Assembly (NCBI GenBank): GCA_016213725.1 | Contig: JACQZS010000091.1 | Location: 1 to 55,819, forward strand | Direction: 5' to 3' | DNA from: Acidobacteriota bacterium | Lineage (GTDB): Bacteria; Acidobacteriota; Terriglobia; Bryobacterales; Bryobacteraceae | DNA: 55,819 nucleotides | In this document: positions 36,400 through 41,527 of the stretch, piece by piece | Numbering within the stretch: the stretch's first letter is position 1 | Layout: every line of letters begins with the position of its first letter | Program-made: the position numbers and the translations under genes | The notes under the pieces: generated by a model | What the model was told of the DNA's origin: nothing | Database searches by the model: none | The model's input: only the letters and a program-made list of their open reading frames with translations

Positions 36400-36675
36400 A
36401 TGCCCAAGTTCGTAATTGAAAGAGAGATTCCAGGTGTGGGCGGACTGAGCCCGGACCAGTTACAGGCGATTTCGCAGAAGTCGTGCTCTGTGCTGCGGGA
36501 GCTGGGCCCGCAGGTGCAGTGGGTGGAGAGCTACGTGTGCGCGGACAAGATCTACTGCGTCTACATCGCGCCGGATGAGGCGAGCGTGCGTGAACACGGG
36601 GCAAGGGGCGGTTTCCCGGTAAACGTGGTGTCGCAGGTGGTGCGGAAGATCGACCCGACGACCGCGGAAGGCTAG
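36400..36675 (+). CDS. DUF4242 small protein (SCO4226-like nickel-binding family)
   Basis: 91 residues, with a GGGGGG-rich ribosome site. The sequence fits the DUF4242/SCO4226 family: KFVIEREIPGVGGLSP, then VQWVESYVCADKIYCVYIAP and REHGARGGFPVN. The family is a ferredoxin-like fold reported to bind nickel in one member. The His of REHG and the glutamates are the candidate ligands. Its stop codon overlaps, on the opposite strand, that of the candidate selenoprotein: one CTAG serves both. Confidence 0.8.
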   Translation: MPKFVIEREIPGVGGLSPDQLQAISQKSCSVLRELGPQVQWVESYVCADKIYCVYIAPDEASVREHGARGGFPVNVVSQVVRKIDPTTAEG

Positions 36676-37103
36676 AGAGACGCCAGGATGGCGCTCACCG
36701 GGGGCGTGCCGCGCCAGGCGGCGGCGATAGCCTGATCGGGTCCGATGACATAGACGGTGCGGCGCACGATGGGACCGAAGCCCGCCTTGTACTGGAACGC
36801 GATGCGCCCGCCCTTGTCGCAGAGGAGCGCGAAGGGCAGGCCGAGTTTTTCGACGTAGCGCGTGTGGCTGGCGGGACCGGCGGGATTCACGCCGTAGACC
36901 ACGGCGTTAGCGGCTTCGAGTTGCGGCCAGGCATCGCGAAGCGCGCTGAGCTGGTGCGTTCAACCGGGCGTGTCGTCGGCGGGATAGAAGACGAGGACGA
37001 CGGGGCGGCCGCGGTGTTGGTCGAGACGCACGGTGCGGCCCATGTGGTCGGTGGATTCAAAGGGCGGCGCGGGAGTTCCAGGCCGAGTGGGAGCGCCGAT
37101 CAT
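36672..37103 (-). CDS. candidate selenocysteine peroxiredoxin (BCP/PrxQ-like), in-frame TGA at the peroxidatic Cys
   Basis: From the ATG at 37103 to the TAG at 36672 the frame encodes 143 residues if the TGA at 36960-36962 is read through. Before it comes a full thioredoxin-fold start, PVVLVFYPADDTPG, and after it THQLSALRD, so the TGA falls exactly where BCP/PrxQ proteins have the catalytic Cys (TPGCT). After it the frame continues with peroxiredoxin sequence (VVYGVNPAGPASHTRYVEKL, FQYKAGFGPIVRRTVYVI) to a normal stop. The usual second Cys five residues later is missing; another lies in ALLCDKG and could serve for resolution. A stem-loop sits downstream of the TGA at SECIS-like spacing. The alternative is a nonsense mutation or base-call error (TGC to TGA). 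Confidence 0.7.
36927..36954 (-). promoter_or_regulatory. candidate bacterial SECIS stem-loop
   Basis: Immediately inside the coding strand after the TGA, CCAG pairs with CUGG at the base, then C-A with U-G, then CGC with GCG, around an apical loop starting with G (GCUUC). Two short mismatched interiors interrupt the stem. The apical loop begins 17 nt after the TGA, within the range known for bacterial SECIS elements, and has a G at its first position as they do. Folded by eye only. Confidence 0.5.
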
Positions 37104-37113
37104 GGATGCCTCG

Positions 37114-38772: not shown

Positions 38773-39207
38773 TTATTGGCTGACGTAAGACATCAGGCGT
38801 TCCTGGACAGTTTTGGCGCGCTGATTGTCCCAACAGGCGATGAAGACGGTGTCGTCGCCGGCGACGGTGCCGGCGACCTCGGCCCAATCTTCCTGGTCGA
38901 GGGCGACGGCGAGGGAGTTGGCGCTGCCGGTGGAGGTCTTGAGGATGACGAAGTTCTGGGCGAGGCGGACATCGAGAAGGTACTCGGCCATCACCTGGCC
39001 GAGGCTTGGGCCGGTGGGATCGGGGAGGATCTCGCGGTAGCCATCGGCGGTCTTCGCCAAGCCCATTTCGCGGATGTCGCGGGAGAGGGTGACCTGGGTG
39101 GTTTCAATGCCCTGGTCGCGGAGCTCGCGGGCGAGTTCGTCCTGGGTATTGATGCGCTTGGTGCGGATGAGCTTGAGGATCTGTCCCTGGCGGTAATTTT
39201 TGGTCAT
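38773..39207 (-). CDS. argR: arginine repressor ArgR
   Basis: 144 residues, normal length. The N-terminal winged helix (RQGQILKLIRTKRINTQDEL, then QVTLSRDIREMGL) binds ARG boxes. The C-terminal oligomerisation domain has the arginine-binding motif GTVAGDDTVFIAC in place of the usual GTIAGDDT. It is co-transcribed after argH with an ATGA overlap, and the whole operon is preceded by two ARG boxes, so it probably represses its own expression. It responds to arginine by forming a hexamer that binds DNA. Confidence 0.95.
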   Translation of the reverse strand: MTKNYRQGQILKLIRTKRINTQDELARELRDQGIETTQVTLSRDIREMGLAKTADGYREILPDPTGPSLGQVMAEYLLDVRLAQNFVILKTSTGSANSLAVALDQEDWAEVAGTVAGDDTVFIACWDNQRAKTVQERLMSYVSQ

Positions 39208-40583
39208 GACATCGACTCCAGACGAGAGTGGGCGGCGGCGAGCGCCGCGCGGACGGTGGCGGGGGCGGTGCCGCCGGGTGCGGTACGGGTCTTCATGCCC
39301 TCGGCGGGATTCATGAAGCGGGCCATCTCCGGGGAGAAGCGGGGGTCAAAGGCGTGCAGCGCCTCGCCGGTCCACTCGGACGGTTTCCTGTTTTGGCTGA
39401 CGCTTTCGAGCACGAGGCGGCCGACGAGCTGGTGGGCCTGATGGAAGGGGACGCCGGCGCGGGAGAGGGCTTCCGCGAGATCTGTTGCTACCAGCCAGCC
39501 ATCCTCGGCGGCCTGCAAGGGCGGCGCGGGGCGGAGCGTGGTGGTCTCCACGACGCCGCGGGTCATTTCCAGCGAGAGGGTGAGCTGATCGACGGCGTCG
39601 AAGAGGGGCTCTTTATCCTCCTGCATGTCGCGATTGTAAGTCATCGGCAGGCCCTTCATGGTGGTGAAGAGAGAGGTGAAGGAGCCGAAGATGCGGCCGC
39701 ACTTGCCGCGGATGAGCTCGAGCGAATCGGGGTTCTTCTTCTGCGGCATGAGAGAGGAGCCGCTGGTGACGCCGTCGCCGAGATCGAGCCAGCCGAATTC
39801 GTCGGAGGAGTAGAAGATCCAGTCCTCGGCGAGGCGGGAGAGGTGAATGGCGCAGAAGGAGGCGGCGGAGAGGTAGTCCAGCGCCCAGTCGCGGTCTGCG
39901 GAGACGTCCATGGAGTTGAGGGTGACGCCGTCGAAACCGAGTTCGCCGGCGAGGCCTTCGCGATCAACGGGGAAGCCTGAGCCAGCCAGGGCGCCGGAGC
40001 CGAGGGGCATGAGATTCACGCGGGCGCGGGCTTGCAGGAGGCGCTGGTGGTCGCGGGCGAACATCTCGAAATAGGCCAGGAGATAGTGGGCCCAGGTGAC
40101 GGGCTGTGCGCGGCGGACGTGGGTGTAGCCGGCGACGATGGTGTCGGTGTGTTTCCCGGCGAAGTCGAGGAGCGACGCCATCAGGCCGCGGAGCAGCGCG
40201 GTGGTGCGATCGATTTCGCCGCGCAGCCACAGGCGCGTGTCCAGCGAGACCTGCTCATTGCGGGAACGGCCGGTGTGGATCTTGTCGGCGAGCGCGCCGG
40301 CATTGACCTTCAGCAGGCGGATGACGTAGGTGTGGATGTCCTCGTCGGGGGCGTCGGCGGGAGGCTCCGGGATGGAGGCCAGCGCGTCGCAGATGGCCTG
40401 CGCCTCGCTGTCCTGAAGGATGCCAACGCGGGCCAAGGCACGGGCATAGGCCTGGGAGCCGAGGATGTCGGCGGCAAACAGGCGGCGGTCAAAGTGCAGC
40501 GACCAGGAGAAGCGCTGGAAGACTTCCGAGGGGCCGGATTCGAAGCGTCCGCCCCAGAGTTTCATCGGTGTTTCTTGGCTCAT
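39204..40583 (-). CDS. argH: argininosuccinate lyase
   Basis: 459 residues from the ATG at 40583, which lies in an ATGA overlap with argF. A later ATG (40565) would omit six residues (MSQETP), but the overlap favours the first. Family landmarks: KLWGGRF at the N-terminus, AGYTHVRRAQPVTWAHYL, the signature loop GSSLMPQKKNPD, with the catalytic Ser, and MTYNRDMQEDK. It splits argininosuccinate into arginine and fumarate, the last step of arginine synthesis. Stop overlaps the argR start by 4 bp. Confidence 0.96.
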   Translation of the reverse strand: MSQETPMKLWGGRFESGPSEVFQRFSWSLHFDRRLFAADILGSQAYARALARVGILQDSEAQAICDALASIPEPPADAPDEDIHTYVIRLLKVNAGALADKIHTGRSRNEQVSLDTRLWLRGEIDRTTALLRGLMASLLDFAGKHTDTIVAGYTHVRRAQPVTWAHYLLAYFEMFARDHQRLLQARARVNLMPLGSGALAGSGFPVDREGLAGELGFDGVTLNSMDVSADRDWALDYLSAASFCAIHLSRLAEDWIFYSSDEFGWLDLGDGVTSGSSLMPQKKNPDSLELIRGKCGRIFGSFTSLFTTMKGLPMTYNRDMQEDKEPLFDAVDQLTLSLEMTRGVVETTTLRPAPPLQAAEDGWLVATDLAEALSRAGVPFHQAHQLVGRLVLESVSQNRKPSEWTGEALHAFDPRFSPEMARFMNPAEGMKTRTAPGGTAPATVRAALAAAHSRLESMS

Positions 40584-41527
40584 TTCGCGGGACCGTCCAG
40601 GAGCATGAGGAGCAGGGCTTTCTGGGCGTGAAGGCGGTTTTCGGCCTGGTCGAAGACGACCGAAATCGGGGATTCGATGACCTCCGACGTGACCTCCTCT
40701 TCGCGGTGGGCGGGGAGGCAGTGCATGAAGAGCGCACCGGGCGCGGCGAGCGCCATCAAGTCCGAGTTGACCTGGTAGGCGGCGAAGGCACGGGCGCGCT
40801 CGGCGGCCTCGTGCTCGAAGCCCATGGAGGCCCAAACGTCCGTGTAGACCGCCTCGGCACCGGCGAGGCCTTCGGCCGGATCGTTGGCGACGGAGATCAC
40901 GGCGCCGGTTTCGGCGGCGAAGGCGCGGGCCTGGGCGAGGATGTCGGGCAGCGGCTCGTAGCCCGGAGGAGTGACGCAGGTGACACTCAACCCGAGGCGG
41001 GCGCCGTCGAGCATGAGCGAGTTGGCGACATTGTTGCCGTCGCCGACGAAGGCCAGCTTGTGACCCTTCCACCCGCCCCAGTGTTCTTGGAGCGTCTGCA
41101 TGTCGGCGAAGATCTGGCAGGGGTGGTAAAGGTCGCTCAGGGCGTTTACGACGGGGACGCGGGCGTAGAGGGCCAGGTCGTCCACGGTCTTCTGGGAGAA
41201 GGTGCGGGCGACGATCAGGTCAGTCCAGCGCTCCAGATTGCGGGCCACGTCCGCCACGGGCTCACGGCCCCCGATGGGGCCCGTGTTCAGGATGGCATCG
41301 CCGCCGAGTTGCTTGGAGGCGACTTCAAAGGTGATGCGGGTGCGCAGGGAGGGCTTCTCGAAGAGAAGACTGACGATACGGCCGCGGAGAGAGGAGCGGA
41401 AGCTGCCGGGAGCGCGCTTCACCTCGGCGGCGAGGTCGAGCAGGGAGACGAGTTCAGCTTGGGTGACGTCCAGGTCCGAAGTGAGATTCTGGGCAGCCAA
41501 CTGGGGGAAGGTAGGGACAGGATCCAT
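40580..41527 (-). CDS. argF: ornithine carbamoyltransferase
   Basis: 315 residues. The carbamoyl-phosphate motif is FEKPSLRTRITFEV (S-L-R-T-R in place of S-T-R-T-R, a common variant), followed by the LYHPCQ motif. The ornithine-binding HCLP motif is in LFMHCLPAHREEEV. It joins ornithine and carbamoyl phosphate to citrulline. It is the first gene of an argF-argH-argR operon controlled by tandem ARG boxes just upstream; a separate argG must be elsewhere. An acetylornithine-specific transferase is less likely because of the normal length and HCLP context. Confidence 0.93.
   Translation of the reverse strand: MDPVPTFPQLAAQNLTSDLDVTQAELVSLLDLAAEVKRAPGSFRSSLRGRIVSLLFEKPSLRTRITFEVASKQLGGDAILNTGPIGGREPVADVARNLERWTDLIVARTFSQKTVDDLALYARVPVVNALSDLYHPCQIFADMQTLQEHWGGWKGHKLAFVGDGNNVANSLMLDGARLGLSVTCVTPPGYEPLPDILAQARAFAAETGAVISVANDPAEGLAGAEAVYTDVWASMGFEHEAAERARAFAAYQVNSDLMALAAPGALFMHCLPAHREEEVTSEVIESPISVVFDQAENRLHAQKALLLMLLDGPAK

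Follow-up and report, generated by a model that had tools for sequence, protein, structure and literature searches.

A candidate selenocysteine peroxiredoxin and its cysteine-containing relatives in the Bryobacteraceae

Introduction

Is the TGA codon that interrupts a peroxiredoxin reading frame in a genome of the Bryobacteraceae (Acidobacteriota) a point of termination, or is it read as selenocysteine (Sec), and in the latter case which RNA structure would direct the insertion? The question is raised by a stretch of DNA of 55,819 nucleotides, here called the window, in which an earlier note, made from the sequence letters, had described a 143-codon frame with a single TGA exactly at the catalytic position of a TPG-C-T motif. 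A gene finder that takes this TGA as a stop splits the gene in two and misses an antioxidant enzyme of these soil bacteria.

The Sec-Prx family (COG1225 Bcp / PF00578, motif TxxU) is an established selenoprotein family (PMC9312934, PMC13188914), for which PxxxTxxU is given as the motif (PMC13188914). PrxU of Eubacterium acidaminophilum carries Sec at the peroxidatic position, according to a citation in PMC13188914. A 2006 survey counted 12 Prx selenoproteins overall and, in Acidobacteria, 4 selenoproteins of 3 families (PMC1794560), and for the acidobacterium Occallatibacter riparius deep-Sep reported 3 selenoprotein genes, all of known kinds (PMC12013277). A search of mainly non-subscription literature on selenocysteine or selenoproteins in Solibacter, Bryobacter and Acidobacteriota returned no title on a Sec-Prx of the Bryobacteraceae type.

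Results

The gene lies on the minus strand at 36672..37103, from an ATG start codon (37101-37103) to a TAG stop codon (36672-36674), and a candidate ribosome-binding site, GAGG, was recognized by reading the sequence 5 nt before the ATG (37109-37112, minus strand). With the TGA read as Sec it encodes 143 residues. The only stop-type codon in the frame is the TGA at 36960-36962 (minus strand), which is residue 48 and occupies the peroxidatic position (TPG-U-T). It is preceded by VLVFYPADDTPG and followed by THQLSALRD, giving the local context PADDTPG-U-THQLSALRD, after which the frame is open to the TAG; the sequence is therefore intact and in frame on both sides, as had been claimed. At residue 53 (U+5), a Cys in the majority of homologues, the gene has a Ser codon (36945..36947, minus strand).

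Translated across the TGA, the gene product scores 110.1 bits with Pfam AhpC-TSA (PF00578; cut-off 26) over residues 8-128, and 49 bits with Redoxin. PADDTPGU conforms to PxxxTxxU, with the UGA at the peroxidatic column. Among solved structures the best sequence relatives are those of the BCP/PrxQ type (PDB 3drn and 5enu), led by 3drn, a bacterioferritin comigratory protein homologue, and the YPxDxTPG motif before the catalytic position is common to them and to the window's protein, which differs in having Sec for Cys and Ser at +5. It falls short of the equivalog thresholds that NCBIfam sets for PrxQ (78.8 bits, cut-off 260) and BCP, and of that for the thiol peroxidase model NF006960 (67.1 bits, cut-off 140). 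The comparison with PrxU made in the earlier note holds for the position of Sec, but by NCBIfam the protein is not a PrxU equivalog: it reaches 37.7 bits against a cut-off of 270 for NF040737, and has 143 residues against a 233-position profile.

The window's genome (341 contigs, 88.8% complete) was searched for the Sec machinery, a check that the earlier note had proposed. A tRNA-Sec scored 67.6 bits, above the Rfam cut-off, and ARAGORN also called it as tRNA-SeC (anticodon tca). Both selB, at 349 bits when counted together with the neighbour in its frame, and selD, at 351 bits, were likewise above their cut-offs. The remaining gene, selA, was seen as a fragment that starts at the first base of a contig and covers profile positions 317-454, with 88.6 bits, below the cut-off of 267.9.

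Two further in-frame TGA codons were noticed in this genome. One lies in selD itself (contig C218, L019:137-139, plus strand), in the context KAAGUASKL, with an AGGUU-loop hairpin 19 nt after it, and this selD probably encodes a Sec-containing SelD. The other lies in a second AhpC-TSA gene (contig C258, L025:1444-1968, minus strand), at TGG-U-T, with an AGGCU-loop hairpin 22 nt after the TGA and an N-terminus that by eye resembles a signal peptide; this is likely a second Sec peroxiredoxin.

Among 250 genomes of the order, 178 contained a homologue (E<=1e-20). TGA was present in 24 of the matches listed in this search, a list that stops short of the weakest ones, and all 24 loci were read. A scan of contigs of named genomes gave 29 loci, mostly from records titled Bryobacteraceae, Bryobacterales or Acidobacteria, the closest of these being a Paludibaculum MAG (79% identity). 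At residue 48, the 79 related loci examined have TGA in 37, TGC in 37, TGT in 4 (41 Cys codons in total) and TCG in one, the distant match L084 (33% identity); the earlier note had suggested looking for such Sec/Cys pairs. The 37 TGA loci represent 24 genomes, 13 of which were met again under a public name. Frame damage in relatives, which would have pointed to a pseudogene, was not seen: in the matched part of the 79 loci there was no stop other than the single TGA at the residue-48 column of the 37, the remaining 42 being stop-free. Nine genomes of the window's own genus are listed; five carry the TGA form and three the Cys form, so that Sec and Cys forms both occur within one genus. The ninth (G196) has no match to the peroxiredoxin gene at E<=1e-20.

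A tree was built from 57 rows (22 Sec, 35 Cys), leaving out L084 and 21 further rows, namely 19 duplicates, met again under a public name or copying a dropped row, and L094 and L096, which come from other genomes and have the same 60 nt from the codon onward. The tree implies 8 Sec/Cys changes, of which at least 3 are forced by supported branches; on this unrooted tree the changes do not separate gain from loss of Sec. Two Cys rows titled Deltaproteobacteria stand on a long branch. In L061, a MAG record whose title, Bordetella parapertussis, is probably wrong, the Cys peroxiredoxin duplicates that of L042, which belongs to the window's family.

Co-occurrence with the Sec machinery was assessed across the order. 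The tRNA-Sec was above the cut-off in 22 of the 24 TGA-form genomes, the two misses being genomes 79% and 88% complete, and in 4 of 15 genomes picked for having no selB found and no TGA form listed (14 with a listed stop-free match; in the other, G065, the match lies outside the list). It was also present in all three Cys-form genomes of the window's genus. At E<=1e-45, selB was found in 22 of the 24 TGA-form genomes (weakly in G070 and G186); as 225 of 250 genomes overall match, 202 of 250 over the cut-off, and other elongation factors also match the search at this threshold (11 of 14 control genomes), co-occurrence of selB does not discriminate and was rejected as a test for the TGA form. 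The closest relative, G220, a TGA-form genome of the same genus, has no selB at E<=1e-45; tRNA-Sec and selD are present. A search for selD in five TGA-form genomes recovered the gene from four, in each case with one in-frame TGA, and gave none in G186.

Substitutions relative to the 79%-identical sequence gave dN 0.11 and dS 0.54 after the TGA (0.20 and 1.31 before it), and against six other Sec forms pN after the TGA was 0.26-0.30 and pS 0.45-0.70. These values indicate that purifying selection acts after the TGA and that the gene is not decaying there.

The U+5 column, which we take to be the position of the resolving Cys of BCP, holds Cys in 13 of 22 Sec rows and in 30 of 35 Cys rows. Nine Sec rows, that of the window (Ser) and eight others, have Ser or Gly instead. 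Three Cys rows of the window's genus have Ser there too, so Sec is not the only context in which the +5 Cys has been lost. Besides the Sec position, the window's protein has a sole Cys, Cys95, in a column that holds V, I, F, T or Y in the other 56 rows.

The structure that might direct Sec insertion was then sought downstream of the TGA. The stem-loop at 36927..36954 (minus strand), which the earlier note had likened to bacterial SECIS elements, did not withstand comparison: a 44-nt segment holding it has a folding energy of -12.1 kcal/mol, less favourable than that of the average shuffle (z +1.22), with 185 of 200 shuffles equally or more stable, and in relatives there is no apex signal at the corresponding +18/+19. 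It was rejected as the SECIS and is probably the wrong hairpin. A fold of 55 nt instead favours a hairpin at 36909-36947 (-19.6 kcal/mol, z -1.19, 29 of 200 shuffles as stable), whose 30-nt core at 36913..36942 (minus strand) gives -11.2 kcal/mol (z -1.97, 8 of 200 shuffles as stable), the core having been picked for folding after looking at the sequence. Its 6-nt loop, CUGGCC (36925-36930, minus strand), is separated from the TGA by 29 nt. A search of 1 kb around this region against Rfam gave no match at E<=1.

The 22 TGA and 35 Cys rows were compared at 34 apex positions, against synonymous-codon shuffles. A TGA-specific signal appeared at +29 to +33 after the codon and none near +18; at the best position, +31, mean z was -1.72 in TGA rows and -0.24 in Cys rows (p 2.5e-6, by Mann-Whitney tests that ignore kinship, in a scan designed after the sequences had been looked at). 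In sets thinned to below 65% identity (11 and 12 rows), p was 0.003 on energy and 0.014 on z, and at +18/+19 no difference between TGA and Cys rows was found. A strong hairpin (-11.5 kcal/mol, a threshold set after the energies had been seen) occurs in 19 of the 22 Sec rows and in 3 of the 35 Cys rows. A tree-aware sign test had 3 usable pairs on supported branches, too few for significance, and a first strict scan with bSECIS-like rules showed no difference between TGA and Cys homologues.

Pair counts over the ten most similar Sec sequences are consistent with the named helix: 72% of cells are paired, versus 62% in shuffles (1 of 500 as high) and 27-47% when the helix is slid by one to three columns, and the covariation score is 0.36 versus 0.24 in shuffles (4 of 500). 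Two of the five pair-count measures, pairs changed on both sides (192/500) and further pair types (156/500), were not above shuffles. RNAalifold did not recover the window's helix from either group of sequences and gave other, short helices, and by eye the register of the helix in the apex scan varies between groups.

The published bSECIS rules call for a loop of 3-9 nt located 16-37 nt from the UGA, a minimum free energy of -7.5 kcal/mol or lower, a G at loop position 1 or 2 and 4-16 bp in the upper stem; some bSECIS elements are stated to fall outside the model (PMC13188914). The 36913-36942 hairpin agrees with these rules in loop size, spacing and energy, and departs from them in that the first G of its loop is at position 3 and its uppermost stem has 3 bp before a 1x1 mismatch, counted uninterrupted. 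A scan by the published rules accordingly returned no hairpin after the residue-48 TGA. The selD and second peroxiredoxin hairpins of the same genome fall within the loop, stem-length and spacing rules; folds of the surrounding sequence gave z -2.04 for selD (49 nt) and z -0.40 for the second peroxiredoxin (55 nt). The TGA-versus-Cys comparison moderately supports the hairpin with core 36913-36942 as a SECIS candidate.

Discussion

Our analysis points, with a high degree of confidence, to a gene encoding a BCP/PrxQ-like peroxiredoxin that would carry selenocysteine as its peroxidatic residue, as the earlier note had suggested. Support for this reading comes from the genome's Sec machinery (selA in part), from the exchange of Sec and Cys at the column and from the purifying selection that continues past the TGA; a hairpin that follows UGA but not Cys codons adds weaker support. 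Three parts of the explanation, the insertion of Sec, the identity of the SECIS and the reduction step, are ones we infer, as follows. SelB with Sec-tRNA(UCA) would bind the hairpin at a loop some 29 nt downstream of the UGA, and Sec would be inserted at residue 48. The selenol would then attack the peroxide, yielding a selenenic acid. The oxidised Sec would probably be reduced directly by an external thiol rather than via an internal Sec-Cys bond. Such a one-Sec mechanism is likely, judged from these sequences, because the +5 Cys is missing from the window's protein and from the majority of the Sec forms closest to it.

One may ask whether the TGA is a codon with meaning at all. That it is a nonsense mutation of TGC or TGT, in a pseudogene or through a sequencing error, is conceivable in that a single base separates TGA from either codon; such an explanation is scarcely credible, however, given that 37 of 79 loci, from 24 genomes, share the TGA at this one column and are otherwise free of stops in the matched part, and that selection persists after it. 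A different meaning is also very improbable. In systems of the selC* type, a tRNA-Sec-like tRNA is charged with Cys, and were the UGA read in this way the product would be an ordinary Cys peroxiredoxin. Cys would work at this column, which holds it in 41 of 79 loci, and selA is visible as a fragment only. Against this, the genome has selB and selD above cut-offs, selD would have no evident use under such a reading, and the tRNA scores as tRNA-Sec above the Rfam cut-off.

Two further alternatives accept Sec and differ in how it would be inserted or recycled. The SECIS may be another structure, either the 36927-36954 stem-loop or one reaching upstream, with the +31 signal arising from something else. 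The departures of the 36913-36942 hairpin from the published loop and stem rules, the different, short helices of RNAalifold and the uneven register among groups all lean this way, but we regard the possibility as rather unlikely: among 34 apex positions the difference between TGA and Cys rows is clear at +29 to +33, it survives thinning and is absent at +18/+19, and the named helix is far better paired in place than when slid. With respect to recycling, Cys95 might resolve the oxidised Sec within the protein, being the only Cys available besides the Sec position. We consider this improbable, as Cys95 is unique to the window's protein among the 57 rows; direct reduction of Sec by an external thiol is preferred.

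That the window's gene is a new member of the Sec-Prx family, itself already established, is well supported. It shares with that family the AhpC-TSA domain, the PxxxTxxU motif, a UGA as the peroxidatic codon, the existence of Cys homologues and the presence of Sec machinery in the genome. It differs in being of a Bryobacteraceae type, in a hairpin that lies off the published rules and in the missing +5 Cys. One may tentatively propose that PrxQ-type peroxiredoxins in acidobacteria of the Bryobacteraceae type have exchanged Sec and Cys repeatedly, and that the window's Sec group gave up the +5 Cys to become a one-Sec peroxidase, with a SECIS outside the published loop and stem rules. With Sec and Cys forms side by side, some within one genus, these loci form a natural series on the timing of Sec gain and loss in peroxiredoxins, and the same series could address whether loss of the +5 Cys accompanies Sec.

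As for the genomic surroundings, a SCO4226-like (nickel-responsive) gene at 36400-36675 (plus strand) runs towards the peroxiredoxin gene, and the stop codons of the pair overlap within CTAG at 36672-36675. On the minus strand, an arginine-repressor-like gene (38773-39207) overlaps by four bases with an argininosuccinate-lyase-like frame (39204-41072), which is long (622 aa) and has its best match from residue 175.
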